From: Bolinopsis microptera
Taxonomy: Eukaryota; Ctenophora; Tentaculata; Lobata; Bolinopsidae
DNA: 60,000 nt
Assembly: GCF_026151205.1 (NCBI RefSeq)
Contig: NC_087079.1
Span: 2,577,730-2,637,729 of the forward strand
Direction: 5' to 3'
Part shown: positions 10,474 to 53,640 of the stretch, piece after piece
How the letters are laid out: each line of letters starts with the position of its first letter
How positions within the stretch are numbered: the first letter of the stretch is position 1
Notes under the pieces: generated by a model
Seen by the model: the letters and a program-made list of their open reading frames with translations, nothing else
What the model was told of the DNA's origin: nothing
Databases searched by the model: none
Position numbers and translations under genes: made by a program

Positions 10474-13400
10474 GTAATAAGTTTTCTTTAAATTAATAAA
10501 GATACATTAATTAAGTTAACTGGATTTACAAAATTATTAGTAGACGTTATTCCTGCTATTTGCATATTTTCTTAGAGTAAGAGTTGATAATTTATCTGTT
10601 TTCATATTACGGATCAGGTTAGGTCTGGTAGATAGGTAGATAGATCGTATTCTCCAGAAGTAGACCTGCAAATCCTATATATAATCTGCACCTCTAAACC
10701 CTTATAAGCTTATAGCACTGTAACACGGTATAGATACCTTTTCAACTCTGAAAATAATGTGGGGTTAGTGTTACTAAACGTGGGGCTGAGTTTTAACTTG
10801 TTTCAGGTACATTGGGTTCAGAGAGATGGAGGAGTATTGTGTGGGGAAACTAGCCTTCACTAAGGAGCAGGTAATTAATTAATTAGCGAGCAATTAGCAG
10901 GTGGTTAACTTGTGATTTGTTAATAAGAAGTTTGCTGATCAACACTAACTATTCAGCAAGCTTTTTGACACTATTTTTTTCGATTAAGTACCCAAAAGAA
11001 TTGAGTGCTCAAGTTTTATAAATATATTATTTGGTAAAACCCAAAGACTGTAGTATAGCAAGGTATAGTGTAGGTAAGCAATATTGATATGAATAAAACG
11101 TATATCTTCCGCTTATTCGCGTGATTTTCCCTTTGTAATTGAATTCTGTGTAGAACTATAACATATAATATAGGTGAGCCTTGTCTAGCTGTAAAGGTGG
11201 TTTATTATGTTCTGTAGAGTGTTCTAACTTATGTGAGGTAGGTTAATAACGTTTATATATTCTCTTAAATAACAATAACATTATAATAATAAACATTAAA
11301 CATCACTTTCCATGCTTATTACAATAACAGTTACCTATCAGGTAATAATAAAGATTTGTCAGATGGTGCTAATAGATTAATATTAGCATGCGCTGCTTCC
11401 GGCTGAATTTGTCATCAGAATAACGATATCTCTCGATAATTCTGTTAAACTTAAAACTAACATAGCAGTCACTTATCTGATATTGTAAAGATAAATTAAT
11501 AAAATATTACTTGCTGATTTGAGCCTTCCCTATATAATAATATAACAAAGTGTTCAGCTAAGATTAATAAGGAGCAAGTAGGTATAACTTATATGGTTTT
11601 CTAGGAATAGTGTTATTGAATTAGGGTAAGTCGAGTTGTGTTGTCTTTATAAAGGAGCAGTTAGTCTGACAAATAAGATTAGCATTTGTTATACTCCTTA
11701 TAGATCTGCATTAAATTGTCGGGGCCTGAAATTTGAAGGTTTTATTACTGGCCTGAATGAATATTTTTGAGGGTTGCATATTTAAAAATTGGTTCAAACG
11801 ATTAGATTATGATAGATCATCAGTTAAATTTTTTACATCAACTGTCTTTTTCTTTAAAAAGGCATAAGATGTATAGAAGTGCAGAAGGAATTGAGAATGG
11901 GTATAGCAGGTAGCTAAGTTTTTCGTACGGTGTCACAAAGCAAAACATGCATAACCCTCCGCATACTTTATTTTAATGCATATTTTCTGCGCGCAGAGCA
12001 GTTATGGTGTAGTCGCCATGGTTACCCTCCGCATACGTTTGCACGATTTGACGATTGATCGAATTACACTTCCGATTGCGCGCGGCGCCAATTGATTTAG
12101 ATAACACGCGATTTCCCGGATTTTATACATTACATGTGACATGTGTTAAGTAGCCCACGCTTTTCTTTATTTGATCATTGATCATGATGCGGTACAACAT
12201 ACTAACTTCTCGTTTTGTTGTGAGTGCTTGATTTGTTATACGAAATGGACCATAAATGTTATTATGAGTTGCATTAGTATTACCTGCTACGGATTTCACG
12301 ACTTTTAACTGCATATCACCACACAGGCGCAGGCGCTACGGTGTCCGGTCATTTAACTTTTTAAATTTGACTAATTGACAATGGCAACCCCTCCATTTTG
12401 TGTTCCGTAGCGCCCCAAGAATGGTGAATAAAGAACCATTATTTAATATTTTGACCAACATGAAACTATCGTTAATTTAAATTTTAAATTTTAAAAGGCA
12501 TGACAATCACTACGGTTGATGGAAATCTAGCGTCCGCTAACCGGCGCAATTCTTGTTAAAGAAGTAATGCAGGTAGTAGCTGGACGAATTCGACGAAATG
12601 TTAATTCTCTCATTATGAACTTTTAACATGTTTTTAGCAATTAATGTACCGATGTACTTAATCATTCGCATTTTATTCAACACCAACATAATCTCAATAA
12701 ATGTAATAGATTTGTAATCAGTTTTAAAGTCGTGCATTAAAGAAAGACCAACTAAAATACATTATGTGGCTGACAAACAATGACCTGTTGTAGTAATTAT
12801 ATTACTAACCTAGCCCAAAATGTCGTGTAGTGAAATGTCCCTTTATTTACTTCCCCAGTACCCAGATTTTCCCTCTTGTATTACATGTAATCCTCCCTTA
12901 GGTAGCGGACGTGTTTGCGAATTTAGACAAGTCTGACCTGGGTAAGATTAGTAAACACAACTTTATGGAGGGACTACAAGAGTTCGCAGCTAGCAACGGG
13001 GTCACTGACTTCTCCGAGTTAGCGGACAGTTTTGATCTCCATAACTACGATGAGACTCCTACTGTTCTTACCCCGGTAAGTGAGGGAGTGTGACGTCATA
13101 CCACGTGACATGACGTCATACCACGTGACATGACATCATACCAAGTGACATAAGGTATCGAGTTTCGTCAAACCACAACCTCAGAGCCCGAATACATGTC
13201 AACCATGATGATATAAAGATATAAGATCGAGCTAAACGTTACAAATTCTCACTGAAAGACAGTTTACGTTACCCTGGCCATCCCCCAGGACTACGAGGGA
13301 CCCCTGGACCCCTCCAAGCTAGACGAGATAGTGTACGAGGAGAATAGCTCTACAGCAGCAAGGAAACTTACCTCCTTCCCTTCCCTTGATTTCGATACTT

Positions 13401-16400
13401 GGACTGATATGTTACGGCGACTGGGTGCACTTGAAACTTTCGAACAGTCAGTACTTAAATTCCTTAGATTCCTTGTCAAGTTATATTTTTATTGGTCATT
13501 TTTAGTAGTATTATTGTTGGGATTTTATATTAGGACAAAATGCGCTTATCTTATCATGTCATTTCCTCCTGACAAAATTATTAAAGTAACTGCTACTAAC
13601 CTCTTGCCCACCCCAGTAATGAGGGTCTCAGAGAGATGTACTACACAGCCCGAGATAAGTGTCCCCACGTGCTGCCTAAACTAGAGGACTTCATACGAAG
13701 TATCATTGCAGAACGTAACAATCAGAATCAGATGAAGGCTAGCATGGAGGACGTTCTTAACAGGTAATTTTATAGCAGGGTGGTGTGTTTATGAAGGAGC
13801 AGTGTGGTGTGTTTGTGAAGGAGCAGTTTAGTTATTCGTCGAGACATCGTTCGTGATTCCTTTTTTGTTGAGGCGCACTTTATGATTCAATATAATATTT
13901 TAAGGGTTTGTTGTGAATGTTTGAAAATATTCCCACAGTCCTCTAAAACACAACATCTCTTGTTATAAAACATCCCAAACACGTAAATAGTAATTCATGT
14001 GTTGTTGTATATCTGATCCGTGTTCAACCACTTGTTGAACCAACTGATCAATCACAACGCAGCATCCCAGCTAACCAGCCAATCAGAACACAGTATCTCT
14101 TCACGTGACACATGAGGTGTATTGACAGATACACTCGCATGAGAAGTCTTGTGTTTCCATGCGGTCTTCTCATTGGTTAACGACGTGTCACGTGACTGTT
14201 TCCGGCGATCTGACTGGCTGTTTGGATTTCAGTAATGATTACATGGAGTGTGTACTGTGTAGGTATAAATGTAGAGGTGCTATATTTGAACTCGGAGTAC
14301 ATTGTCATGGGGAGAAGTTTAAATAGTGGAACTTATAGTGGTACTGAAACTGGTTTTATAGCATTCGTCTACATCTGAAAATCAGAATCATCAAATAATA
14401 ACAGTGGAGGGAGTGATCGTTGAGTTTTAGAGGAAGCAGAGCCAGTCGAGTAACTTAAAAATATATATCTGAAATATAAGACGCTGCTAATCTCTTCTAA
14501 TCCTCCACAAAGTTCAAGTTCAATAGTCCCCCAGAGCAGGGTCGCCTGACTGACTGGGTCACACCACATGTCGCTCTAAATGTAACACTAACTCTTTAAT
14601 TCTGTGTCACTACATTATCCTGTCTCGCTCTGTGCAGGTTCATATTGCCAGGATTATTATATTGTACTGGAAACATGTCTGAAATCACCTTTATATTGTA
14701 GACTAGTAGTAGTAGTAGTATTGTAGAGTATCTCACCCCGATTGTCGCGACAATCGTTTCTTGTCTCAGTATCTTATAATTAAGATGGGGGTACTACAGG
14801 TAGTAGTCAGTCTGGGGTATTGTCTGGGGTATACTGGGGTATTGTTTCCTGCAGTCCCCAGACAAAGTGTGTTCTTGAGGGCGGGCTATTTCATTATCTA
14901 ACTTGAAAGAGAATTCGCAATTGTCGCGACAGTCGTTTTAAAAAATACAATGACCACGGGACCTTGTGAAATATTTATCCAAGTTTTTGTTATGCACCGC
15001 TCTCCCAAGATTTTCGAATTGTGTACGTGAGAAAATATACAGATTCATTACTGAAATGGGATTTGTAAAATTTAACATGCAACCAATGTACGAGCTGGAT
15101 GATTTAAGTAAACATTGATACAGGAACGGTAGTTGCAGCTATGCCACATACATATTACATATTACATGTTATTACGTTTTTCTCAACGATGTAGTTGTCA
15201 AGATTTGGGCCTAACGCTCTCATTAGTTAATATAAACATGGTAATGAATTAGCGTTGTTTTCTTCATGAGTCTAAGCTGTTCTGGTTTGTCCAATGACTT
15301 CTATTATCTTTCTAGCGACTCTATATCTTTAGCGCCCTACATATTGAGGATTGAGTGTTACTCCCACTTTGAAAACTCGTTAGCGATTATGACCATCTGT
15401 TTGAAAACTCAACCAAAGAAATATTAGTGCATCAAATTTTTGCCTCAACATTCGTTGAATTGAGATGTTTGTGCATATTGTACGTAACGCGCGAGAACAA
15501 AGTGACATTGAGATTTTACAAACGTTACAGATTATTATATGCGTGTTCGAGCTAGCTAGCTGCGCGCGTTATTTGTTGTTAGCAGTTCAGTTTATTTCAG
15601 TGGTATTTTGGCGCGAAGACGACCAGTTTGGTTATCCGTTTCACCCATTAACCAAATCATTGAGCAGGATGTCAGTTAAAAACGCAAGAATAAGAAATCC
15701 TATCCTAACATTGGTGGTAGTCACCAGTGCTATCGATATCCCCAATATTACTACTGGAAACATATCCACACAGCTGAATGACAATGTTATTTCAGGAGGC
15801 AGCAAGCGTATGATACACATTTGGAGACTCTAGAGTCTGAGATGAAACTAGACGCCAACTCCCGCAAATACTCAACTCAAATGGTAAATATGTTTGTAAT
15901 GTAAAATTCATGGATCTTATTTCGGTAGCTATTCCAGATTCCCATTCCTTCTGACCTAAAACTCGATTTTACTGTTTATATTATCAACACTCGTGTATTC
16001 TTGTGTAAATAAACACTCCATTTCAGAACCAAATACGTCTAGATCTGTCAGAGTTAGAAAAGGTGCAGGAGTTAGAGATGATAAAGTCTAAGTGGATGGA
16101 ATCAGAGATGAAGTGCAAAAAGGTACGTGCAAGTTTCAGGGAGTTTTCTTAGCATGGTTTAGGGAGTTTAGTTACCATGGTAATGTATGAGTAGTTTTAC
16201 TGCTGCGAGCTTTTCATCATCACTTATCATATTATAACAGACAGGCACGTGTCATGAAGTTGAAAAGTATAACACCCATCCATATGTATGATTCAGATTT
16301 CATTGTACCATTTACCATTGCTTATAAATTACATAGGTACACTGAATTATGAGACTTGTTGAAACAGTTTCAAAATGTTTTGATTTTAGTTACATTTCCT

Positions 16401-30100: not shown

Positions 30101-33100
30101 TAGAGTCTATCCTTAAAAATATTATTATTTAAGTTGAAACTAGATAGTATTTTATAGTTCTCTACATACCAGGAGATCTACTGAACTACCGCTAAAGTCC
30201 TACTCGTCTATAAAATACGTGTAAAGTTACTCTCTACCTCGCCGCTACTAAGCTGGCACTCTCACATTCTGCTCTTTAAGTTCCGCTCTGCTTATCAAGA
30301 TTCTAACGGATTCCTCGAAACAACGCTCCTTCATGACTATCTAGATTTCTTTGAAATAATGCCATTTATTTCCCGGTAATTTATAAATTTATTCCTAAGA
30401 ATTAAGGAACATTATTAACCCTACACTCTACTTCCTAATAAGTTTGCTAGTCTGCCGATGATAGTTGATGTTGGAGCACCTTGTTCTAGTGCTTATCGCC
30501 GCCCCCTACCCCTTGCTGTACAATACATCCAATCAACCGAACTTAACAACATGAAGATACTGGAGAGTAGTGTAACTAGTAGTGTAACTAGTAGTGTAAC
30601 TAGTAGTGTAACTAGTAGTGTAACTAGTAGTGTAACTAGTAGTGTAACTAGTAGTGTAACTAGTAGTGTAACTAGTAGTGTAACTAGTAGTGTAACTAGT
30701 AGTGTAACTAGTAGTGTAACTAGTAGTGTAACTAGTAGTGTAACTAGTAGTGTAACTAGTAGTGTAACTAGTAGTGTAACTAGTAGTGTAACTAGTAGTG
30801 TAACTAGTAGTGTAACTAGTAGTGTAACTAGTAGTGTAACTAGTAGTGTAACTAGTAGTGTAACTAGTAGAGTAACTATTACAGAGGAATCAACTCTTCG
30901 GCAGGAAGTGCACATCACTTCTGGTCTTCACGTTCGCAGTCTTTCTATAGGACGTACAACGCGTAACGTGCGTGACGTCAGGTCACGTGGTTTGACGTCA
31001 CGTGAGAGCGCCGCCGCGTGCACGTGCACAGATGAAGATCAGTTAGACGGTACAAGAAGGGAAGCTGAAGAGTCGAGTGACTTTACTCGTCGCACGCTGC
31101 AAGCTCTTCGGGAGGATGGTGGGTTGTCAAGGCTGTCTAGGATACAACTTCTCGCTTTGTTATCTCTGTACAAAGCCAAGAAACTCTCTCATTCCATGGT
31201 ATTATATTAGATATTCTTTACAAGTATGTCACCAATTTAGTTTGTTAAGTCTGACTATTTTACTTTTATATTTAAAATACTACTTATTTACCAACAATAA
31301 ACATTATCATTGCTAAATTTTAGGAAAAATCAGTTTGATTACTGAAAAGGAGAGCCTCCTCAACTGTACTTGTTGGTAAAGCGTTAAAATGTAATAGCCT
31401 TGTTGTTCTTATTTCCTCGTTGTCGTCTGTCGATTTATTGGCAATCACTATTGTTTTTACTTGTCCTTGTTGAATAATTGGATACCAAAGGAGACTTGAG
31501 GAATTGAGGGACAGTAGTCTTACACAAAAGTATGTGATCTACACAGTACACTGTAGATTCTAAAGTATGTAATCCACACTGTAGATTCTAAAGTATGTGA
31601 TCTACACTGTAGAAGTGTAGATTGTAAAGTATGTGATCTACACTGTAGAAGTGTAGATTCTAAAGTATGTGATCTACACTGTAGAAGTGTAGATTCTAAA
31701 GTATGTGATCTACACTGTAGATTCTAAAGTATGTGATCTACACTGTAGAAGTGTAGATTGTAAATTATGTGATCTACACTGTAGAAGTGTAGATTCTAAA
31801 GCATGTGATCTACACTGTAGAAGTGTAGATTCTAAAGTATGTGATCTACACTGTAGATTCTAAAGTATGTGATCTACACTGTAGATTCTAAAGTATGTGA
31901 TCTACACTGTAGATTCTAAAGTATGTGATCTACACTGTAGATTCTAAAGTATGCGATGTTCACTGTAGATTCTAAAGTATGTGATCTACACTGTAGATTC
32001 TAAAGTATGTGATCTACACTGTAGATTCTAAAGTATGCGATCTACAGTCTACACTGTAGATTCTAGAGTCGAAACGTACACCAGCTGATGGACAATCAAA
32101 CATTTAACAAATTCCTGAGATGCTGACAGTTTTTAAGAACAATAGCCTTCCAAAGACTTTACCTTCGTGAGCACAGTTAACATTTCTTGATAATGTTTTC
32201 GATGTTGTTAATTTTGATTTTATTTGTAACGGGTGTATAGTAAGTCACAATTTTCTCAAATTGAAGTTGTATTGGCCTTCTGGTCACAGTTTGTAATATT
32301 TATACAGTGAAAGTGCTTTAACCCATATATAATAGGATAATACATGTAATATCATGGGTAGATCAAGTGGGAGGTATAGTAGATGGATGACATTTTTTGA
32401 TACCCATTTGTGGTGGTTGTCAGCTGTTCTCAGCTGCTTACCTGCCCTTGCTCGCGCAGTTGCTCTCTGTGCTGCATTAGCTGCATTGAAGACATTAGCC
32501 AAGAGGGAAGCCAGGAGAAACACCTCACGACACGTGCAGCGCACTCTTAGCACTTGTGATATAGATCAGGTGCTGAGAAAAGCTAAACTACGTTCCAAGG
32601 AGGGCGCATACCATACTTTCTTCGACTGTCGGGATAGATCTGAGGAAGAGAGGATAGCTTTCAAGGAGATCTGGGAGGAGTTGAAAGAGAAAAGAAAAGC
32701 AAATCCTAACGAATTTTATTTTATTAGGAACAATAATATTGTAAGCTCTGAAGAAAACAGTGTGTCAGGCCCGCCTGACTAAACTTTAACTGTTTCACAA
32801 TCTTCACCACACATGTTTGTTTCTACTTTCTATTCATAACTTTGTTTTAACGGGTACATGTAATTATGCCGGGCACAGTTCCTGTGTATTTATACCGTGT
32901 TTGGTTTCCCGTAATATTTAACAGATGGTGGCAACCTTTTACACTATTTTAATTTGTATCCTTAATATTTGCTGTACTCTGTAAAGTTTGAAAAGTATCT
33001 AATTAATTAACTAATTGATTTATAGATTGATTTATTAACCACTCTGACATGTGTTTGTTGCAGGAAAACCTAGAGCTGCAACATTTGATAGCTAACAGTC

Positions 33101-36100
33101 AGAACTCCCTTCTCGAGAACAAGGAGCGTATTTCGATACTCAAAAACAAGGTAACACCACCACTAAATTCACCAGATCTATATCAATTATGTGATTCTGC
33201 TTATGAGTGCCAGTTGAATTCTTAAATGTATTTAAAATGTCCATTTAACTCGGCTTCACAAGTTAAACATGTTCCCTCCCAAAGATGCAAGCTATTATCT
33301 CACTCACACCCCTTCTCAGATGCAAGAGCAAGCTCACTTGTTGCTGTGTGAGACAGGTCAGAAACAAGCGCTGCAGCAGGATAATGAATCGCTCAGGAGA
33401 CAGTTTGAGGGGCTCGCGTTAGTAGAGCAAATACTTTTCATTGTTTTCTTAAATTAATGCAAATGCTTATTCCACTTGCCATGGTAAAATGCCCGTACAT
33501 GGTAAAATGCCCATATATGGTATCAGTCCACTAACCTTGACCTCACCACCGCAGGAAGATGAAGGATGATTTACAGGACGAGAAGGACTCCCTGGAGATG
33601 AAATACCAAACCCTCCTCAACAGCTCTACTAAACCTAAGACGATAGAAACCAGCACTCCTAGAGCCAATAAGAAGAGACATAGACGCAGGTTAGACAAAC
33701 TTGTTTTCATGGCAACCATCTACTTAATATCTTCTTATGTCTGTGTTCTCTATCTTATTGTCTTTTGCTGGTATTGATCGTTATTTTTCTGATTACTGAA
33801 AATCAATCTATTCGTCTTCATATTTAAAACAGATTATTGAATTACCGATTAATTAACCAGGGGTGCAGGGTCAGGCTCACTGAACCAGTCCGGGTACACT
33901 TCCTCAGAGGAGGAAGTAGGAGGAGGAGGAGGGGGCCCTGTTAACGGCTCCTCTCGCACTGACTCCGCTCTACCTGAATCAGAGCCTTCCTTCTCCAGAG
34001 GTAATGTTTTGCAAGATACTCTTCTTTACAGCTGGTACACTCAGTCATACTTACTTTTTAGAGATACAATGTTTGTTTACTTTCTGTTAGATCCCTGTAT
34101 TCTGAAAACAGAAACTCAACAACTCCAAACAATTATAGAGAATAGTTACGACAGTTACGAAGCTGGGGAATCTCCGGTAAAACACTATTCAGTAGACGGA
34201 GATGGGGTTATCTGGAAGAGACCTCTTCAATCTTCTATAAATCACGCGCATCCTCTCATGGCTTCCACTATGAGGTATTTTCACAGAAATTGTTTGGGTT
34301 AGATTTAAAGATTTTATCTCTGTTCTACGCATTTAAATATGCATGTTTTTGACAATATAAGTTTATTAAATTCATCTTTTTAATTCCTATCGAATATCAA
34401 GGGTATCGTAAATCTTAATGCTTAAAATCATGTATTTTTTAAACCACTCACGATTAGTTTCAAACCCAGCATCAGTTGTCTCATTTCTGCATTGAAGTCA
34501 CTGGTCAATATACATTGTTGTAAATTATATTGTTATATATTATTCTATTTGTTTTCCAAAAATTGAAGTCACTGCTCCTTCATAAAGTCTTCACCTCAGA
34601 TATAGTCCCAGTGTTACCAGTGATGATTGTGGACAAGATAGCGGATACCATATTCCTACTTCAGATTGCTCTACCAAACCTTACTCAGTGAGTATTCATA
34701 ATCATAATCAAAAGTTAGTATCTAATCCTTTTGCTGATATTGCGCTTTAAGAAATCTAAAATCCAAGCTGTTTGGATGAAAGCTTCACCTTCAAGTGAGA
34801 ATTGTTATTCTTAGAATTCCGATAGAACCTAATTAGAGTAACCAAACAGGTGTGTTCGGTAACCTCACTAGAAGGGAGACAACCTGAGCGTGTGTTTAAA
34901 GTAGTGTTGCTAGGCGACAGTGCGGTTGGTAAATCCTCTTTTATCATGAGACTGTGTCACAACAGGTTTCAAGCTGCTTTTCAACCTACCATCGGAGTAG
35001 ATTTTCAGGTTAGTTTTTAGTTTTAGTTAATAGTTTTTAGTTTTTAGTTCAGCAATACTCACAATACCCATATATAGACTGTAACTGCTAATGGATTAAT
35101 TAGAGAGATTAGTATTATATATAACAATTTGGTATTGGCCATAGTTCACGATTTTGATCACCACAGTTATATTGACATATGTTTTAGATAATTCTCATGT
35201 TATGAACTTATTAAACAACAAGTCTAGAGTTATTGAGTAGTTAATAACACTCTGATACAGGTAAAGACGATGTTGATACAAAACACAGTAGTGTCGCTCA
35301 GCTCTGGGATACCGCTGGACAAGAGAGGTGCCGGCTATTTTAATTTACCCTTATTTTAATGTATTATTATCATTATCACGTGTAACCAGTAACCACGTGT
35401 GACGTGTGACCAGTAACCAGTACGTGTGATTTATGCAAGAGGCGTCAAATTATAGATGCCTTATACTATTAAACACAAATGCTCCTGCATAATTAATAGC
35501 ATTAATTAAGAGTCGGTAAATTGGGAGAGTCTGACTTGGTAGATTGAAATGATCTACAGTACTATGGTTAACAAGTAACATCTTCAGATTCAGGGCAATC
35601 ACTAAGTCTTATCTACGTAGAGTAGATGGAGTACTTCTTATGTATGATGTTACCAGGGAATCAAGCTTCAGGAACATCCGTGATTGGATTCAGAGTATTG
35701 AGGTAAGATGCTTAGTTAGTTATACATACTACTACTACTAGTTTTATTACGATCAAATTATGATTTGTTGTTGCGATAGGTGTACAGTTCACTATTGGCC
35801 CTTAAAATGGTCTTAGCTGTATTCTGTTTAGGATAGTGCTGATGTTACTATTGGCAAATCACCAAACAGACAAAACAGACAAAACAGACAAAACAGACAA
35901 AAGGTCACTTCCTCATTAAACTTTCAAATATTTTATGTTTTTCACACATTGAATGGGAAATTAAACTTACTGGGCTTATCTTCTTGTTGAATCTATAAAA
36001 TTTACGTTATGAGAAATCAGGTACAAGTTTAATTCCATTAACTTATCTTTTGCAGCTCGTTAAATCGAACATAGTTCGATAGATAATAATCTTACCGTAA

Positions 36101-36961
36101 GCTTCAAAGACAGAGCCATGTTTATCTACAATCTAATAAACGTGTACCATATTAAACTATTTGTAGACATTACCAATTCCAAAGGATAAAGGGCTACAGT
36201 TTCGAAACTTTAAGTTTGTTCTTGACTAGCTTAGTTCAGACCACAGAGTTCCGTACCTCTAACCTGATCAATTATATTATTATGATATATAATCTATCAG
36301 TGCTCTTTATCAACAGATGACAAGTCCAATTCCAATACAATCATCACTGAGACATGCAACAAATAAAAATAATTACTAATTAATTTAACTGCTTTATATT
36401 ATAGTTGATAAATAATTGTTTCAGGAAGAAGACGAGGCGCCGACTATCATGTTACTTGGCAACAAAGCAGATCTCATAGCAACTGGAGATCAACCCCGGG
36501 CTGTTAAAACTGTTGACGGGGAATCTTTAGCCAGGGTTCGTGCTAAAATAAGCTGATCGACCAAATTAAACTATTTTTTCGATCTAGAAGTTTCTATCTC
36601 ACATTTCAAAGCAGAACCAAATATCACGTCTTTCGGTGAAAAAAGTATCTTAATATTTTGTTTTTATTATAGACAAAGCTCCACTAAAAAGTTGCTAATT
36701 GTGAAATGGCGATATTTAAATTTACTGTCGTTATACTTGTACAAGTTGTGAGCTAACTATAGATAACTGCAGGAGTATAACGCAATGTTTTGCGAAGTCA
36801 GCGCTAAGAAAGGAACCAACGTTCAGGACTGTTGTGAGGACCTTACAAGATCTCTGATGAAACGGGAGAATCAGAAAATAGCCCAAACGAACATCAATAT
36901 TGTGCCAGCTTCTAAGGACAGATCGGTACTATCAGATAAATCCTGTACAATCTGCTCCTGA
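10391..36961 (+). CDS. Large Rab GTPase, EF-hand/coiled-coil/Rab (RASEF/CRACR2/Rab44 type)
   Basis: Twenty-two exons, joined by GT-AG introns with matching phase at every junction but one, encode about 1,393 residues from the first exon found. Order: EF-hand pair (residues about 1-90, loops DTDEDGYIGFRE and [12 protein letters not shown]), a conserved RLGAxxxFE segment and coiled coil (about 130-270), a Ser/Pro/Gly-rich linker (about 271-936), a second coiled coil (about 937-1040), a Ser-rich hinge, then a Rab domain (about 1195-1370). Rab motifs: [10 protein letters not shown]-loop, PTIGVDF switch [21 protein letters not shown]. Known relatives are large calcium- and GTP-regulated Rabs in vesicle traffic. 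The 5' start exon was not found. Exon 19 is one base short, so the copy as given is frameshifted before WDTAGQER. The linker exons (24213-31198) are assigned by phase, not homology. Confidence 0.85.
10807..10870 (+). CDS. Rab-gene exon 2: end of EF loop 1
   Basis: Completes the loop as G-Y-I-G-F-R-E, giving D, D, D, Y, and E at EF positions 1, 3, 5, 7 and 12. Continues [15 protein letters not shown]. Acceptor tttcag, donor gtaatt, phase 2 to phase 0. Confidence 0.9.
12902..13075 (+). CDS. Rab-gene exon 3: second EF hand
   Basis: 58 codons, phase 0 at both ends. VADVFANL then loop [12 protein letters not shown], with N instead of E at position 12, which usually lowers calcium affinity. Followed by an acidic stretch ending VLTP. 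Donor gtaagt is a consensus site. Confidence 0.9.
13289..13446 (+). CDS. Rab-gene exon 4: linker to coiled coil
   Basis: Acceptor cccccag. Reads [20 protein letters not shown] and ends [10 protein letters not shown], a segment that resembles the part of CRACR2/EFCAB4 proteins just after the EF hands. The donor gtcagt at 13447 is the only good site giving the phase 2 that the next exon demands; the open frame itself continues past it. Confidence 0.75.
13617..13763 (+). CDS. Rab-gene exon 5: start of first coiled coil
   Basis: Only phase 2 entry avoids stops. Reads [35 protein letters not shown] and a helical run ending EDVLN. Acceptor ccccag, donor gtaatt. Confidence 0.85.
13764..15795. other. 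Intron of the Rab gene
   Basis: Two-kilobase intron with a small direct repeat of GGTGTGTTTGTGAAGGAGCA-like sequence near 13785-13825 and two TGTCGCGACA palindromes (near 14745 and 14922). A 122-codon ATG frame at 15468-15833 overlaps the next exon in another frame and is judged spurious. Confidence 0.5.
15796..15883 (+). CDS. Rab-gene exon 6: coiled coil
   Basis: Acceptor tttcag, donor gtaaat. Reads [19 protein letters not shown] with heptad-like spacing of Leu/Met. Phase 2 in, phase 0 out. Confidence 0.85.
16027..16122 (+). CDS. Rab-gene exon 7: coiled coil
   Basis: Phase 0 to phase 0, 32 codons: [20 protein letters not shown] and a further basic/acidic helix. Acceptor tttcag, donor gtacgt. 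The next phase-compatible exon is 8 kb away, across an intron that contains other genes. Confidence 0.88.
16512..16919 (-). CDS. Small secreted Cys/Trp protein, intact copy
   Basis: Single-exon ORF of 135 codons with ATG at 16919. Begins [20 protein letters not shown], a typical signal peptide. The mature part has [30 protein letters not shown] and ends [11 protein letters not shown] Cys-Thr-Gly segment, then W..Y, then a CGF...P....SLSG segment recalls a family of small secreted proteins seen in invertebrates and fish that I cannot name, so no function is given. An AATAAATTATAAATTTT box lies about 70 bases upstream. The gene lies inside an intron of the Rab gene on the opposite strand and has a tandem sister at 17362-17771. 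Confidence 0.75.
   Translation of the reverse strand: MKLLGWLMTVMALNLSLSSELKIVNTPDGKSHPAPCAMTCTGVSGFSETGLYRWQSYEYGTAWKQINIAECGFVSIPVITATLSGTYIWRCPAIFTERGYITQSTFDVQTVEKTSPSHMVYSRCDVHWSAFGYNC
17056..17088 (-). promoter_or_regulatory. Conserved upstream block of the secreted-protein gene (copy A)
   Basis: A 33-base block ending in gtgacgcgac is kept almost unchanged 5' of both sister genes (17056-17088 and about 17922-17955), while sequence around it has diverged. It lies about 140-170 bases upstream of each ATG, so a shared promoter element is a fair inference. Confidence 0.45.
17362..17771 (-). pseudogene. Small secreted Cys/Trp protein, frameshifted sister copy
   Basis: ATG at 17771 starts [19 protein letters not shown], again a signal peptide, followed by [20 protein letters not shown]. 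The frame then breaks between about 17570 and 17600. The rest continues in another frame as [18 protein letters not shown] and ends [10 protein letters not shown], parallel to the intact copy. The break fits loss of one base (or gain of two) in a region of SG/EG codons. The 5' and 3' flanks are also duplicated, so this is a tandem gene duplication of about 0.85 kb. It could be a pseudogene, or a sequencing error in a real gene. Confidence 0.7.
17922..17955 (-). promoter_or_regulatory. Conserved upstream block of the secreted-protein gene (copy B)
   Basis: Second copy of the block described at 17056-17088: caattctattgtagatta followed by tatttgtgacgcgac. Confidence 0.45.
18126..18157. repeat. 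Poly-G run of about 32
   Basis: Uninterrupted G homopolymer. It resembles the termini of the TTAA foldback element but has no TTAA next to it and no matching arm. Confidence 0.9.
19861..19922. repeat. Perfect long hairpin
   Basis: Two 29-base arms, perfect over about the inner 23, read toward a TAAG loop; arm core AAAACAAAAAATTGTGC. It lies in an intron of the Rab gene and would fold in either strand. Confidence 0.85.
20233..20562. repeat. 13-bp minisatellite (GGCTGCGTTGCTA)
   Basis: About 25 copies of GGCTGCGTTGCTA with variants ACTGTGTTGCTA and GGCGGCGTTGCTA. The variant order recurs in blocks (near 20277 and 20407), showing block duplication inside the array. Confidence 0.95.
20563..22057. 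other. Intron sequence, no gene recognised
   Basis: AT-rich non-coding DNA. The paired open frames around 20900-21105 on both strands have no family motif or splice partner. Confidence 0.5.
21457..21504. repeat. Near-perfect 24-bp inverted repeat
   Basis: TTTAAGTAAACATAAAG and its reverse complement meet with almost no loop. It is AT-rich and likely cruciform-prone. Confidence 0.85.
22058..23501. repeat. 49-bp minisatellite
   Basis: About 29 copies of a 49-base unit containing ttttccgttgggtagagaca and ctactggagctgttagtgga. The period is not a multiple of three, so the open frames here are artefacts. A doublet of variant units (gtaagtgaag) at 22437/22486 recurs at 23421/23470. That is 20 units apart after four inserted bases, so part of the array seems to have been duplicated as a block. 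Confidence 0.95.
23644..23718. repeat. 31-bp direct duplication
   Basis: Two adjacent copies of a unit containing ctctaaaaccctccaaatgg. Confidence 0.85.
24213..24746 (+). CDS. Rab-gene exon 8: Ser/Pro-rich linker
   Basis: Phase 0 in and out, 178 codons, donor gttact. Composition is Ser, Pro, Asp and Asn rich with [30 protein letters not shown] and [17 protein letters not shown], typical of a phosphorylated disordered linker. An upstream AG at 24206 would add two codons. Membership in the Rab gene rests on strand, phase and position. Confidence 0.65.
24881..26776. mobile_element. Non-autonomous DNA transposon with ~190-bp TIRs
   Basis: The left arm (about 24881-25070) and right arm (about 26590-26776) are diverged inverted copies that begin CCCGCTCACATAGTC and share GTATCTCAGCTTCTGAT and CCACGCCCTTTT blocks. 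The 1.5-kb centre has no transposase frame but carries a 10-11 bp repeat of GGCTATTA(G/A)C at about 25855-25980. No clear long target-site duplication; AT flanks each end. It lies in the intron between Rab-gene exons 8 and 9. Confidence 0.7.
25855..25985. repeat. Short repeats of GGCTATTAGC/ACC
   Basis: Roughly eight imperfect copies of ggctattaaccggctattag-type sequence, inside the long-TIR element. Confidence 0.75.
26988..27059 (+). CDS. Rab-gene exon 9: short helical linker exon
   Basis: 24 codons between acceptor ctcttttcag and donor gttagt, phase 0 both sides: [14 protein letters not shown] then [10 protein letters not shown]. It is too short to stand out by length; splice signals and phase support it. 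Confidence 0.6.
27060..28434. other. Intron of the Rab gene
   Basis: AT-rich sequence with a C-run at 27651-27659. No exon or element recognised. Confidence 0.5.
28435..29070 (+). CDS. Rab-gene exon 10: acidic and Gly-rich linker
   Basis: 212 codons, phase 0 at both ends, donor gtgagt. Begins [15 protein letters not shown], has acidic [15 protein letters not shown] and a Gly/Ser/Arg repeat (about 28852-28977, [14 protein letters not shown]-like). It then ends [20 protein letters not shown], which looks like a basophilic kinase/14-3-3 type Ser cluster. An in-frame ATG at 28429 sits just before a modest acceptor (gatgaag), so an alternative start is possible. Confidence 0.65.
29761..29862 (+). 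CDS. Possible alternative first exon of a short Rab-gene isoform
   Basis: ATG at 29761 opens 34 codons ([15 protein letters not shown], then a basic KKRKDRNRR run) ending at consensus donor gtgagt in phase 0, which fits the next exon (30443). As an internal exon its entry phase would not match exon 10. An internal promoter that drops the EF hands is thus possible. Confidence 0.35.
30443..31198 (+). CDS. Rab-gene exon 11: (SSVT)n linker exon
   Basis: 252 codons, phase 0 both ends; acceptor after a pyrimidine tract (ctacttcctaataag), donor gtatta. After about 40 residues comes a 12-base tandem repeat translated as about 26 SSVT units, then [15 protein letters not shown] and a C-terminal helix [18 protein letters not shown]. 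The Ser/Thr tract would be disordered and a target for phosphorylation or glycosylation. The exon also carries E-box/CRE sites in its coding sequence at 30973-31006. Confidence 0.65.
30565..30876 (+). repeat. 12-bp coding minisatellite (AGTAGTGTAACT)
   Basis: About 26 almost perfect copies. The 12-base period keeps frame, so copy number changes add or remove SSVT units. Only the last copy differs (AGTAGAGTAACT, giving SRVT). Confidence 0.97.
30973..31006. promoter_or_regulatory. E-box/CRE composite inside coding exon
   Basis: TGACGTCA at 30973-30980, TCACGTGG at 30983-30990 and TGACGTCACGTGA at 30993-31005 lie within exon 11 and match the tandem unit of 5941-6080. A promoter-like repeat appears to have been captured in the exon, or the exon doubles as an enhancer. 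Confidence 0.4.
31528..32064. repeat. 28-bp minisatellite with a mirror segment
   Basis: About 15 copies of tctaaagtatgtgatctaca ctgtagat, some lengthened by gaagtgtagat. Because GATCTACACTGTAGAAGTGTAGATT contains TCTACACT and AGTGTAGA, the longer units can fold as hairpins. Confidence 0.9.
32354..32782 (+). pseudogene. Retroelement ORF1-like fragment in an intron
   Basis: ATG-initiated frame of 142 codons ending TAA. The first third is hydrophobic ([19 protein letters not shown]), but the last part, [17 protein letters not shown] and [20 protein letters not shown], resembles the C-terminal domain of LINE ORF1 proteins (helix, then K/R-rich, then FxIRxxxIV). It cannot be a Rab-gene exon because it ends in a stop. 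It may be a young LINE fragment or a small orphan gene with one membrane segment. Confidence 0.45.
33064..33150 (+). CDS. Rab-gene exon 12: second coiled coil
   Basis: 29 codons, phase 0 both ends, acceptor tttgttgcag. [19 protein letters not shown] then [10 protein letters not shown] shows regular hydrophobic heptads. Confidence 0.85.
33320..33417 (+). CDS. Rab-gene exon 13: second coiled coil
   Basis: Acceptor ccttctcag, donor gttagt, phase 0 to 2. [20 protein letters not shown] and [13 protein letters not shown] continue the coiled coil. Confidence 0.85.
33555..33689 (+). CDS. Rab-gene exon 14: coiled-coil end and basic segment
   Basis: [20 protein letters not shown] closes the helix; [12 protein letters not shown] is a basic patch that could bind membranes or act in nuclear import. 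Acceptor accgcag, phase 2 to 2. Confidence 0.85.
33861..34000 (+). CDS. Rab-gene exon 15: Ser/Gly-rich hinge
   Basis: [19 protein letters not shown], a run of six Gly, then [16 protein letters not shown]. Acceptor ttaaccag, donor gtaatg, phase 2 to 1. Confidence 0.8.
34091..34274 (+). CDS. Rab-gene exon 16: hinge before Rab domain
   Basis: Acceptor ttctgttag. Reads [34 protein letters not shown] and [11 protein letters not shown]. Phase 1 to 2. Confidence 0.8.
34600..34687 (+). CDS. Rab-gene exon 17: hinge before Rab domain
   Basis: Acceptor cacctcag, donor gtgagt. [19 protein letters not shown] and on to KPYS. Phase 2 to 0. Confidence 0.8.
34850..35008 (+). CDS. Rab-gene exon 18: P-loop and switch I
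   Basis: 53 codons. Strand beta-1 [18 protein letters not shown] holds the G1 P-loop [23 protein letters not shown] holds the switch I Thr (PTIG) that coordinates magnesium. The residues fit an active GTP-binding Rab. Phase 0 both ends. Confidence 0.95.
35261..35327 (+). CDS. Rab-gene exon 19: G3 box, one base short
   Basis: Reads [13 protein letters not shown] in the incoming frame. The following [10 protein letters not shown] (G3 motif with catalytic Gln) is in the next frame. The exon is 67 bases; neighbouring phases require 68. The break sits at the CTCAGCTC stretch near 35296-35302, where one C of an expected CTCCAG seems missing. No other acceptor or donor in reach repairs it. Either a real loss-of-function allele or an assembly/sequencing error. 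Confidence 0.9.
35588..35702 (+). CDS. Rab-gene exon 20: switch II to helix 3
   Basis: [20 protein letters not shown], then [19 protein letters not shown]. This is typical Rab sequence after WDTAGQE. Phase 2 to 0. Confidence 0.95.
36425..36535 (+). CDS. Rab-gene exon 21: G4 box
   Basis: [20 protein letters not shown] contains the NKAD guanine-specificity motif. Phase 0 both ends, donor gttcgt. Confidence 0.95.
36773..36961 (+). CDS. Rab-gene exon 22: G5 box and prenyl tail
   Basis: [20 protein letters not shown] contains the G5 motif (EVSAK). The C-terminus is [15 protein letters not shown] and stop TGA at 36959-36961. Two Cys at positions -5 and -2 suggest geranylgeranylation, although CXXCX is not one of the usual Rab endings (CC, CXC, CCXX). 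Confidence 0.93.
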   Translation, partial: EYNAMFCEVSAKKGTNVQDCCEDLTRSLMKRENQKIAQTNINIVPASKDRSVLSDKSCTICS

Positions 36962-42900: not shown

Positions 42901-43093
42901 GTGTAGAGTGTCAGTGATTCAATTTTAGCACGTTCGTGCTGATCCGCCAGGTGCTGATCCACCAGGTTACTTTCACTAGTATCATCTACGGCGTTCGAAG
43001 TTTCTACAGGTGGGTTAAAATGCATTATATCTGCAATCTGAGTTAAGGAAACATTAAGATACAACTTTAAAACAGCCAGTTAGCTCTTGCATG

Positions 43094-43858
43094 TCAGGGT
43101 CAGGGTCAGGGTCAGGGTCAGGGTCAGGGTCAGGGTCAGGGTCAGGGTCAGGGTCAGGGTCAGGGTCAGGGTCAGGGTCAGGGTCAGGGTCAGGGTCAGG
43201 GTCAGGGTCAGGGTCAGGGTCAGGGTCAGGGTCAGGGTCAGGGTCAGGGTCAGGGTCAGGGTCAGGGTCAGGGTCAGGGTCAGGGTCAGGGTCAGGGTCA
43301 GGGTCAGGGTCAGGGTCAGGGTCAGGGTCAGGGTCAGGGTCAGGGTCAGGGTCAGGGTCAGGGTCAGGGTCAGGGTCAGGGTCAGGGTCAGGGTCAGGGT
43401 CAGGGTCAGGGTCAGGGTCAGGGTCAGGGTCAGGGTCAGGGTCAGGGTCAGGGTCAGGGTCAGGGTCAGGGTCAGGGTCAGGGTCAGGGTCAGGGTCAGG
43501 GTCAGGGTCAGGGTCAGGGTCAGGGTCAGGGTCAGGGTCAGGGTCAGGGTCAGGGTCAGGGTCAGGGTCAGGGTCAGGGTCAGGGTCAGGGTCAGGGTCA
43601 GGGTCAGGGTCAGGGTCAGGGTCAGGGTCAGGGTCAGGGTCAGGGTCAGGGTCAGGGTCAGGGTCAGGGTCAGGGTCAGGGTCAGGGTCAGGGTCAGGGT
43701 CAGGGTCAGGGTCAGGGTCAGGGTCAGGGTCAGGGTCAGGGTCAGGGTCAGGGTCAGGGTCAGGGTCAGGGTCAGGGTCAGGGTCAGGGTCAGGGTCAGG
43801 GTCAGGGTCAGGGTCAGGGTCAGGGTCAGGGTCAGGGTCAGGGTCAGGGTCAGGGTCA
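43094..43858. repeat. (TCAGGG)127 telomere-like array
   Basis: 127 complete, uninterrupted copies of TCAGGG. All long open frames here (SG, RV, DP, LT dipeptides) are by-products of the hexamer. It differs from the metazoan telomere repeat TTAGGG by one base. The G-rich strand could form G-quadruplexes. The lack of any variant copy suggests recent expansion or a copy-number-collapsed assembly. Confidence 0.98.
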
Positions 43859-44134
43859 ATGAATATTATCAATCAGGGTCTCCAAATTTTACTTCAGCTG
43901 TGACCTGCTTGCTAATTATAAAAAAAAGCATAAAAGCATAGCCATAAACCTTGTTTCATGCTTTGTAATGGTTACGAGTTTAAATGCGTCTATATTAATT
44001 ACATAATACTGGATTATTATATTATTGTAAGCGAATAATGATCAAAAATGAAGTGAATTATTATGATTTATGAGGATGAAACCGAGTGTAACTTCCTTTT
44101 TTATACCGGGAAGTAATCAAAAGTGTGTTAATAT
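43859..44134. other. 3' flank of kringle gene
   Basis: AT-rich, no feature recognised. Confidence 0.4.
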
Positions 44135-50280: not shown

Positions 50281-53200
50281 CATCATTATTGATTGATTGA
50301 TTGAGGAGCACTACCCGAAGGCATTACTCGGCACTAACGCCTTAAAATCTTTAATTACAATCAAATATAAATATATGCACACAATGTATAAAGTATTAAT
50401 AATGTATAAAATATGATTATGCTATTAGCAAATTTAAATAGTACTATTAAGAATTTTAAATAACTCTTATCTCTTGACATAAATTTAGAACAGCGACACA
50501 GGGTCTGAAGAATGCGCGGTGATATTTTTATCTTTTAAAAGTTGTAAATGACAGTGAAATTGCGCGGTGTCGATAGCATTGTAAAAAATGCTCGAAGATA
50601 GTCATATTTTGTTATGAGGTTAAAGTTTTGTTGCTCGTTATTATGATCAACGTATGTTGTACCAAATTATTTAAATTTCTAAAAGTACGAAATTTGAGTT
50701 GTCCCAGTCCTTGTCATCCGGTTTATGTGCTTGTGCAGTAAGCACATGCTTGTTGACTGTAGACTTGAATGAATTTAGGAATTTGTCTTGTAGGCAAGTG
50801 GTGACATATTTTATGTCCTTGTTAATAATGTTGACTGTTTGGTTATATAACTTAGGCCCAATGTAAGAAATGCTCTTGTCTGAATTACATAAACGGTTAA
50901 ATGGTACTGCAAAGAACTCAGGTTCTCTTCTAGGTGCGTTTAAGTTTGAAACAGTGAACATTCTTATAATATTTGGTGGTGCAGTGTTAGAATAAACTTT
51001 GTGCATTAAGCATAATATACATTTAGCTATCACGTTCGGTAAAGCTAATACTTCTAGTTTATTGAAAATTTCCTTTGTGTGTGAAGGTGTGCTATTCAGA
51101 TCTTTGTCATAAAAATAGCGGTGGTATTGGTTATCTGCAGCGCGAATGCCCTTTTTCTGGGCCGAGAAGACTCTTTTAACGGAGTTTAGCGATCTTGTTC
51201 CCCAAACTGTGCAGCAGTAGTACAAGTGAGACTGAACAAAGCTGTTGTATATCAACTTAAGTGCTTTGTTAGGTACTGAGCCTTTGAGTTTGTAGAGAAT
51301 ACCCGCATTTCTAGATACTTTAGTGGCTAAATGTCTAATGTGGTGGGCCCAATTTAGCTTAGTATCAATGATCACGCCAAGAAACTTTTCGTGATAACTT
51401 TGCTTTAGTCGCTCACCTCCCATGTAGATTTCTATATCCTTAGTTTTCTTATTTGTAAAGATCATATATTTAGTTTTGCTAGCATTTAATTTAAGCCCGT
51501 TATTAGTAGCCCAATCAATTATCAAAGTCAGAATCTCATTCACTAATGCATTAAGTTGTTCAAATGTATCTGTACTTATTATTAGGTTTGCGTCGTCAGC
51601 GAAATAAATATGTTTAGCTAAATTACTAATCTGAGGAAGGTCGTTGATGTAGATTATGAACAGAATTGGTCCGAGAATGGAGCCCTGTGGTACTCCGTAG
51701 TTAAGTTTGAGGTGAGAGGACTTGCAGTTGTTGACGCTAACGTATTGCTCTCTATCGGTTAGATATGAGTGAAACCAAGATAAAGCCAACCCCCGAACTC
51801 CATAGTGCTCAAGTTTTCTCAGAAGAATACTGCTGTCAACCATGTCAAAGGCCTTGCTGTAGTCCAATAGAAGCAGTGCTGTGACCTGCTTTTTTTCTAG
51901 TGCCCTGTGAATATGGTTTTGGGCTTCTAGTAAAGCATGTTCGCAGCTGTGCCCAGCCCGAAATCCGTATTGAGAGTCAAATAGGATTTTCTCTGTCTTT
52001 AAGTGATCTAATAGTCGCGCTTGCATAATTTTTTCAAAGATTTTTGAGAAACATGAGAGTAGTGAGATAGGTCGATAGTTTGAAACTTCAGCACGTGACC
52101 CACCTTTGTGAAGTGGAACTACTTTCGCGATTTTTAATTTATGCGGAAACTTCCCCTGATGTAGAGACGCAGAGACTAGGCAGCTAAGCACTGGTGCAAG
52201 TATATTGCTCACTTTTTTCAGGGGAAGTATACTCATATCAGAAGTCGACTTAATCTTCAAACCCTTAACTATTTCAATTATTTCTGATGCGGACGAATCT
52301 TCTAGATTCATGCTCCGCTGGCATTTGCTATCTTGAGTTTCTGTTACGATAGTCCTGCCCTCAGAGCATACGAGACCATTTTCTCTCTTAAGAGTCTCAG
52401 CTATATAGCAGAAATAGTCATTGAAGCTATTCGCAATTTGCTGAGAATCTGTTATCTCGCTCCCATTATAGTTAATTTTGTTTATCTTAATTTTGCCTTT
52501 TTTCTTTCTGTTTAACAAGTTATTAACCATTTGCCATTGTTTTCTGCTGTCGCTAGAATATTTTGTAAAGTACGCGTTGTAATATTTGTTTTTGGCCTTA
52601 TCCACGTGTTTATTCACAAATTTCTTCATTTTCTTGTACCTAATATCATTTTCAGTGGTCGGGTTTGTGACAAAATCTTCATAAAATTTATTTTTGCGAT
52701 CACATGCGCACCGTAACCATTCTTGGATCCACGGCTTTGTGTTTTTACGGCGGCCTGGTTTACTCTTTTTTGCCTTAATTGGGAAATTTCGGTCGTATAG
52801 TTCACTATATTTTTTATCGAAAGCCTCAAATTTTTCATCTACAGAATCATAGTTATTAACCAAGTTCCAGTCTACCGCAGAAATGTCGTTCTCGAACTTT
52901 TGGATACTGTCATCGTTTATTACTCGAGAAGACATTTCTGTTGTATCTTCTTGAAGTTTACAACTGAGCCTATTCTGATCAACCATGATTGTGACAAAAG
53001 TTGCCAAGTGGTCAGAGATTGACTCAGAAATTACTCCCGATTTTGTAACAGCGTGGCAATTATTGACGAAAATATGGTCAATGATTGTCGCACTGTGATC
53101 TGTGACTCTAGTTGGTCTAGATATCACAGGAGCGAACCCATGCTCTGCTAGAGTGTCCACATACTTAGTGACAGAGTCTATTCTCCCGTAATCTAGTAGG

Positions 53201-53570
53201 TCTATGTTAGTATCACCGGCCAGTATGATATTTTTGTTTCGATGTCTTGCTAAGTTACGGAGGAAAATTTTTAATTGTTCAAGGAAACCATTCAAATCCC
53301 CACTTGGAGAGCGATATATATTACAGATTAACGCGTTTTTGTGCCCTTTCAAGGTAAGTTCTGCAACCAAGAATTCTCCTATCTTAGGATTATCGTGGCA
53401 ACATAGAGCGCTCTTAACGTTTATGTCAGATAATTCACATAGTTTTTTGTTAACATATATAACTAATCCTCCACCACGATTTGACGCTCTGGCGGGAGTT
53501 TGAACATACGGTGGATAGAAACCGTCTAGTTCGAGCTCCTCTCCCTGAAAAGGCAAACATTCCGTGTTAC
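50281..53570 (-). mobile_element. CR1/Jockey-type LINE, 5'-truncated, nested in an older LINE
   Basis: Element on the minus strand ending in a (TCAA)n tail at about 50284-50305, the type of short-repeat 3' end seen in CR1/L2 LINEs, preceded by a hairpin-like GTAGTGCTCC...GCCGAGTAATGCC 3' end. The 5' end is cut inside the endonuclease domain. It interrupts an older copy of its own family exactly between the codons for RNAGV and KLKSSIPNK. Confidence 0.85.
50671..53556 (-). CDS. LINE endonuclease/reverse transcriptase ORF, 5'-truncated
   Basis: 961 codons open without interruption. The N-terminal ~200 residues are the second half of an apurinic-like endonuclease (GDTNIDLLD, IDHIFVN, SDHLATF). 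The first catalytic segment is missing, and there is no ATG at the head. The reverse transcriptase follows at about 450-760: NYRPISLLSCFSKIFEKIM, QYGFRAGHSCEHALL, LLLDYSKAFDMVDS, YGVPQGSILGPILFIIYIND and catalytic YFADD. A C-terminal domain of LINE type (HLYYCCTVWGT) closes it. The intact frame says the insertion is young. Being 5'-truncated it cannot be mobile itself. Confidence 0.93.
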   Translation of the reverse strand: MPFQGEELELDGFYPPYVQTPARASNRGGGLVIYVNKKLCELSDINVKSALCCHDNPKIGEFLVAELTLKGHKNALICNIYRSPSGDLNGFLEQLKIFLRNLARHRNKNIILAGDTNIDLLDYGRIDSVTKYVDTLAEHGFAPVISRPTRVTDHSATIIDHIFVNNCHAVTKSGVISESISDHLATFVTIMVDQNRLSCKLQEDTTEMSSRVINDDSIQKFENDISAVDWNLVNNYDSVDEKFEAFDKKYSELYDRNFPIKAKKSKPGRRKNTKPWIQEWLRCACDRKNKFYEDFVTNPTTENDIRYKKMKKFVNKHVDKAKNKYYNAYFTKYSSDSRKQWQMVNNLLNRKKKGKIKINKINYNGSEITDSQQIANSFNDYFCYIAETLKRENGLVCSEGRTIVTETQDSKCQRSMNLEDSSASEIIEIVKGLKIKSTSDMSILPLKKVSNILAPVLSCLVSASLHQGKFPHKLKIAKVVPLHKGGSRAEVSNYRPISLLSCFSKIFEKIMQARLLDHLKTEKILFDSQYGFRAGHSCEHALLEAQNHIHRALEKKQVTALLLLDYSKAFDMVDSSILLRKLEHYGVRGLALSWFHSYLTDREQYVSVNNCKSSHLKLNYGVPQGSILGPILFIIYINDLPQISNLAKHIYFADDANLIISTDTFEQLNALVNEILTLIIDWATNNGLKLNASKTKYMIFTNKKTKDIEIYMGGERLKQSYHEKFLGVIIDTKLNWAHHIRHLATKVSRNAGILYKLKGSVPNKALKLIYNSFVQSHLYYCCTVWGTRSLNSVKRVFSAQKKGIRAADNQYHRYFYDKDLNSTPSHTKEIFNKLEVLALPNVIAKCILCLMHKVYSNTAPPNIIRMFTVSNLNAPRREPEFFAVPFNRLCNSDKSISYIGPKLYNQTVNIINKDIKYVTTCLQDKFLNSFKSTVNKHVLTAQAHKPDDKDWDNSNFVLLEI

Positions 53571-53640
53571 AATTACGCCAGCATTTCTAGATATTTTAGT
53601 CTTTAACTATTTAATGTGCTGGCTCCAACTAAGTTTTTAA
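53571..53640 (-). pseudogene. Older LINE copy, upstream scrap
   Basis: Minus-strand sequence reads KLSWSQHIK, stop, then KTKISRNAG, which matches KLNWAHHIRHLATKVSRNAG of the nested LINE. It is the 5' neighbour of the segment resuming at 50280. Confidence 0.75.

Follow-up and report, generated by a model that had tools for sequence, protein, structure and literature searches.

In the window, a 60,000-nucleotide stretch of the Bolinopsis microptera genome, a gene that looks from its translation like an ordinary member of the known RASEF/Rab45-type large Rab family is broken in frame by a single missing base within the exon carrying the G3 motif of its Rab GTPase domain. We consider this one-base deficit, with a probability of roughly 0.6, to be a deletion left behind in the consensus of the assembly; such a break is probably not part of the animal's biology, and no new mechanism is required. 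A consensus error is ranked first because the break is the one lesion in an intact 3′ part of the gene, the recipe used for the assembly can leave indels, and similar single breaks occur elsewhere in the same assembly. The initial annotation had offered three readings, a segregating loss-of-function allele, a recent pseudogenisation and a consensus error; all of them stand, and the one it listed last is the one placed first here. The features of the gene are as follows.

12902 to 13763, plus strand: three EF-hand-like N-terminal exons, with a Pfam EF-hand match below the cut-off
33064 to 34687, plus strand: six upstream exons, coiled-coil-like and linker, in phase (coiled coil by eye)
34850 to 35008, plus strand: Rab exon before the G3 exon, with the G1 motif, ending in phase 0
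35261 to 35327, plus strand: G3 exon, 67 nt long and so one short of the 68 required, with the frame break near 35296-35302
35300 to 35301, plus strand: AG internal to the G3 exon; splicing to it would put the reading back in frame, with 14 residues lost
35588 to 35702, plus strand: Rab exon after the G3 exon, holding a premature TAG (35623-35625) in the broken frame
36425 to 36535, plus strand: Rab exon carrying G4 (NKAD)
36773 to 36961, plus strand: final Rab exon, holding G5 (SAKKG) and the gene's natural stop

Exon borders were placed for 14 of the 22 counted exons, 11 of them in the 3′ part (33064-36961) and three at the N-terminus. In the 3′ part, where the entry phase of the first exon was assumed, the phases of the ten exons besides the G3 exon agree, their splice sites are AG acceptors and GT donors, the final exon closes with a stop codon, ten introns are retained, and the G1, G3, G4 and G5 motifs are all readable. 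The earlier statement that all 21 other exons fit by phase thus holds for these ten, in a gene for which only 14 of 22 exon borders are placed. The six upstream exons lie at 33064-33150, 33320-33417, 33555-33689, 33861-34000, 34091-34274 and 34612-34687, and the translation of 33064-33689 reads by eye as coiled-coil-like. The three N-terminal exons (12902-13075, 13259-13446 and 13617-13763) match the EF-hand profile PF13499 at 13.2 bits (E 0.12, cut-off 30) and may belong to the Rab gene as a candidate assignment; a scan of 13.7-33.1 kb for helical, charge-rich exons picked out a single candidate (31032-31118) and established no connection between the EF-hand and Rab parts. Mid-gene, at 30560-30870, a 12-base repeat codes for SVTS over and over in an open frame spanning 30419-31207. 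Elsewhere in the window, a long six-base repeat at 43057-43938 has several open frames on the two strands (DP, GQ, RV, SG and LT), and a 971-codon open frame on the minus strand (50674-53586) appears by eye to encode a LINE reverse transcriptase with endonuclease. Scans of the window for tRNA genes and Rfam families found nothing.

The borders of the G3 exon are exact, with an acceptor AG ending at 35260 and a donor GT beginning at 35328, leaving 67 nt. The exon is entered in phase 0, as the preceding exon finishes with ...TIGVDFQ, and it must be 68 nt long because the following exon gives a Rab reading only when two codon bases are carried in. These borders and neighbouring phases bear out the original observation that the exon is one base short. 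Translated in frame 0, its first 39 bases give 13 Rab-like residues, and its last 29 bases, completed by the opening base of the exon that follows, give ten Rab residues in a different frame, one base being common to both stretches. Against the Pfam Ras profile (PF00071), the piece 5′ of the break covers positions 1-50 of 162 (49.9 bits) and the piece 3′ of it positions 51-161 (115.3 bits); since the two pieces abut exactly at 50/51, the two-frame Rab match is not due to chance, and the proposal of two halves of Rab sequence in different frames is confirmed. The frame-0 peptide of the G3 exon used alone gave no match among solved structures. The Rab domain is accordingly not readable in one frame in the assembly: after VVSL, the uncorrected frame runs through 21 wrong residues into the TAG at 35623-35625, which precedes both G4 and G5 and has two further exon junctions downstream of it. 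This agrees with the prediction that the G3 motif and the Rab sequence beyond it would be lost in the frame as given.

When the Rab domain, its break filled by a single X, was compared with solved structures, the top match was RASEF itself (2p5s, 'RAS and EF-hand domain containing', 179.7 bits), followed by Rab8A (136.6 bits), among the best 60 of 893 matches. With its two PF00071 pieces and RASEF as the nearest solved chain, the C-terminal domain is that of a Rab GTPase. The EF-hand-like, coiled-coil-like (by eye) and C-terminal Rab parts follow in the same order as in RASEF/Rab45, and large Rab GTPases are described as following a plan of EF-hand, coiled coil and Rab domain (PMC8303950, available text). 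Three features set the gene apart from RASEF/Rab45: the G3 exon that is one base short, the EF-hand match below the Pfam cut-off, and a C-terminus lacking adjacent cysteines. This C-terminus (36941-36961) reads ...SCTICS, with two cysteines that are not adjacent; adjacent cysteines are usual for Rab prenylation, and SCTICS fits no usual Rab pattern. A literature search on RASEF, Rab44 and CRACR2A returned no mention of a ctenophore among the matches listed, from which we do not claim that such work is absent.

Consensus sequences from PacBio CLR reads are left mainly with one-base indels. In a consensus error, the PacBio long reads would have left a one-base deletion in the consensus, short-read polishing would have left that deletion unrepaired, and the real gene would have a 68-base exon and yield the normal Rab domain of a RASEF-type protein. 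The B. microptera assembly comprises 265 Mb in 13 chromosomes and 346 scaffolds, with a largest chromosome of 26.2 Mb, an N50 of 20.8 Mb and a GC content of 38.5% (PMC11797021, Table 1), close to the 38.6% of the window. The available text of the study describing it (PMC10232365) places 97.23% of the assembly in chromosomes, gives the source as one adult from an F3 population, and lists wtdbg assembly, gap closing, haplotig purging, and polishing with Illumina reads and pilon; that text names both PacBio CLR and HiFi libraries without stating which was used for Bolinopsis. The break resembles a residual long-read indel in being the same one-base change, in leaving frame and motifs otherwise intact, and in having other single breaks for company in the same assembly, and it differs in that an error at the G3 exon is a candidate only. 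That this particular base is in error is inferred.

As a yardstick for such breaks, families with long single exons were examined across the assembly. Because the first-look ranking favours intact copies, all counts of breaks are lower bounds and not rates. For protein kinases (PF00069; 136 matches, from 127 of 769 first-look candidates scored), 17 truncated-looking loci, a subset of those present, were examined with a profile derived from those loci themselves, and abutting halves in different frames were found at two of them. The clearest case in the yardstick is L024, which shares 857 identities over 893 aligned bases with its intact tandem neighbour L040 and differs from it by one 1-base gap within the coding part, the remaining gaps lying 5′ of the ATG. 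The second, L026, has 704 identities over 882 bases, with one 1-base gap at the break in addition to in-frame gaps, small cancelling gaps and gaps near the 5′ end. For GPCRs (PF00001; 147 of 1683 candidates scored), 16 odd and four near-complete loci were examined; a single frame change, with the junctions read, was present at two of the 16 odd loci (L053 and L054), an in-frame stop at two others (L055 and L056), more than one change at L046, and an ambiguous reading at L043; at the other 10 of the 16, no break could be told apart from an incomplete profile match or an intron. An abutting HSP70 pair (C2:17252172-17252941) was dropped from the yardstick for having several breaks and lying, by eye, beside mobile-element sequence; the HSP70-like copy at this place (L020, C2:17252000-17253000) shows the same several breaks with mobile-element sequence alongside. 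Other families were scanned by eye in a weak test, with no further abutting single break among the matches listed. Two adjacent myosin-head matches, C3:9154012-9154203 and C3:9154255-9154485, cover the same profile positions (105-167 and 102-167) and are perhaps mutually exclusive exons.

One-base breaks are therefore a recurring background in this assembly. In the GPCR loci examined, in-frame stops are just as common as one-base breaks. Real decay in large gene families probably accounts for part of the background, since the in-frame stops at L055 and L056 are not explained by consensus indel errors. These stops fit real decay and so count against reading the G3 break as a consensus error, as does the fact that the broken kinases and GPCRs come from large families, in which genuine decay is plausible. 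The absence of further single breaks from the by-eye scans also tells against a consensus error, although weakly: the same scan would miss the G3 exon, as the Ras matches listed include its two neighbouring exons and not the G3 exon itself.

The chief competitor, distinctly less probable than a consensus error and held here only tentatively, is that the base is truly missing, either as a young loss-of-function allele, segregating and probably heterozygous, or through a very recent fixation that has made the gene a pseudogene. The broken frame and its stop are present in the sequence as it stands, and the in-frame stops at other loci demonstrate that this assembly contains genuinely broken gene copies. 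Against this reading, the 11 exons of the 3′ part show no further lesion, which allows little time since the break. Older forms of gene loss were rejected: a processed pseudogene, because ten introns persist in the 3′ part, and, for the part tested, an old unitary pseudogene, given one lesion in 11 exons and the motifs kept.

A true loss might also be tolerated, as a divergent and intact large-Rab-like gene (L003, C8:2683171-2684826, minus strand) lies on the opposite strand 45-47 kb past the window. Its G3 exon is intact and spans both intron positions that flank the G3 exon of the window gene, its best solved match is likewise 2p5s (135.8 bits, with Rab8A at 127.4), and an open frame ending in CCVIL near it was taken as its C-terminus. 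Being divergent and having different intron positions, L003 was rejected as a copy or recent duplicate of the window gene; it is possible that it serves as a functional backup. Tolerance is also suggested by CRACR2A, for which a natural short form without a Rab domain is described (PMC8303950, available text). The truncated product predicted here would resemble that form in combining an EF-hand and a coiled coil with no functional Rab domain, the difference being that the CRACR2A form is a natural isoform and the present case a frame break in an assembly.

The genome searched for further copies comprised 264.65 Mb in 232 contigs. A search of it at the DNA level for another haplotype or a recent duplicate of the region turned up, besides the window itself, only a 53-base match on contig C13 (85%) to 35000-35052, mostly intron. 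The three N-terminal exons matched only themselves in the genome (two first-look candidates). Pairs of matches with identical scores at C11:11303567/11341653, C13:4982550/5070304, C3:14376336/14635184, C3:15521599/C68:524 and C8:17780409/C162:4885 suggest retained haplotigs or recent duplications. For one glutamate-receptor locus of this genome, kainate receptors headed the solved-structure matches, and ML032222a, a Mnemiopsis protein, stood further down. A tight one-strand cluster of Ras-family matches was also observed at C1:12425539-12459122, many of which are intronless, as they are full length in a single open frame.

Rescue of a truly shortened exon by splicing or by frameshifting is very unlikely, even when both routes are taken together. 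In the first, the lesion would be real and bypassed, with the AG ending at 35301 joining the exon 34850-35008 in frame to LWDTAGQER and shortening the Rab domain by 14 residues. Seven AGs in the G3 exon were tested, and that at offset 41 does open the frame through to the natural stop; the only other open one, at offset 65, loses G3. A splice site that restores the frame, which the initial annotation named as an outcome that would undo its reading, therefore exists on paper, but it looks a poor acceptor, lacking a pyrimidine tract and having two other AGs just upstream. The product would, moreover, hardly be functional, as the residues skipped are those of what we take to be the switch I/beta-2 region of the Rab fold. 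Bypass by this acceptor is accordingly an improbable account. Programmed −1 ribosomal frameshifting across the break would yield a domain of the expected length, but a slippery heptamer (X XXY YYZ, with Y being A or T) was sought in 35201-35340 and none was found, making this the least credible explanation of all.

A residual consensus deletion, the preferred reading, carries a caution for gene-loss studies in general: when one long-read assembly shows a catalytic motif cleanly broken by one base, the reads need to be consulted before gene loss is called. If the deletion is real, the transcript would be a target of nonsense-mediated decay or would encode an EF-hand/coiled-coil protein lacking a functional Rab domain, because the stop at 35623-35625 lies upstream of two more exon junctions. 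That the deletion is both real and common, with the GTPase part of RASEF being lost, the calcium-sensing and coiled-coil part kept, and partial rescue through the internal acceptor at a loss of 14 residues, is a long shot. Were it true and frequent, a large Rab would be seen to lose its GTPase domain naturally in an animal lineage that branched off early, and the intact divergent relative nearby would offer a comparison.
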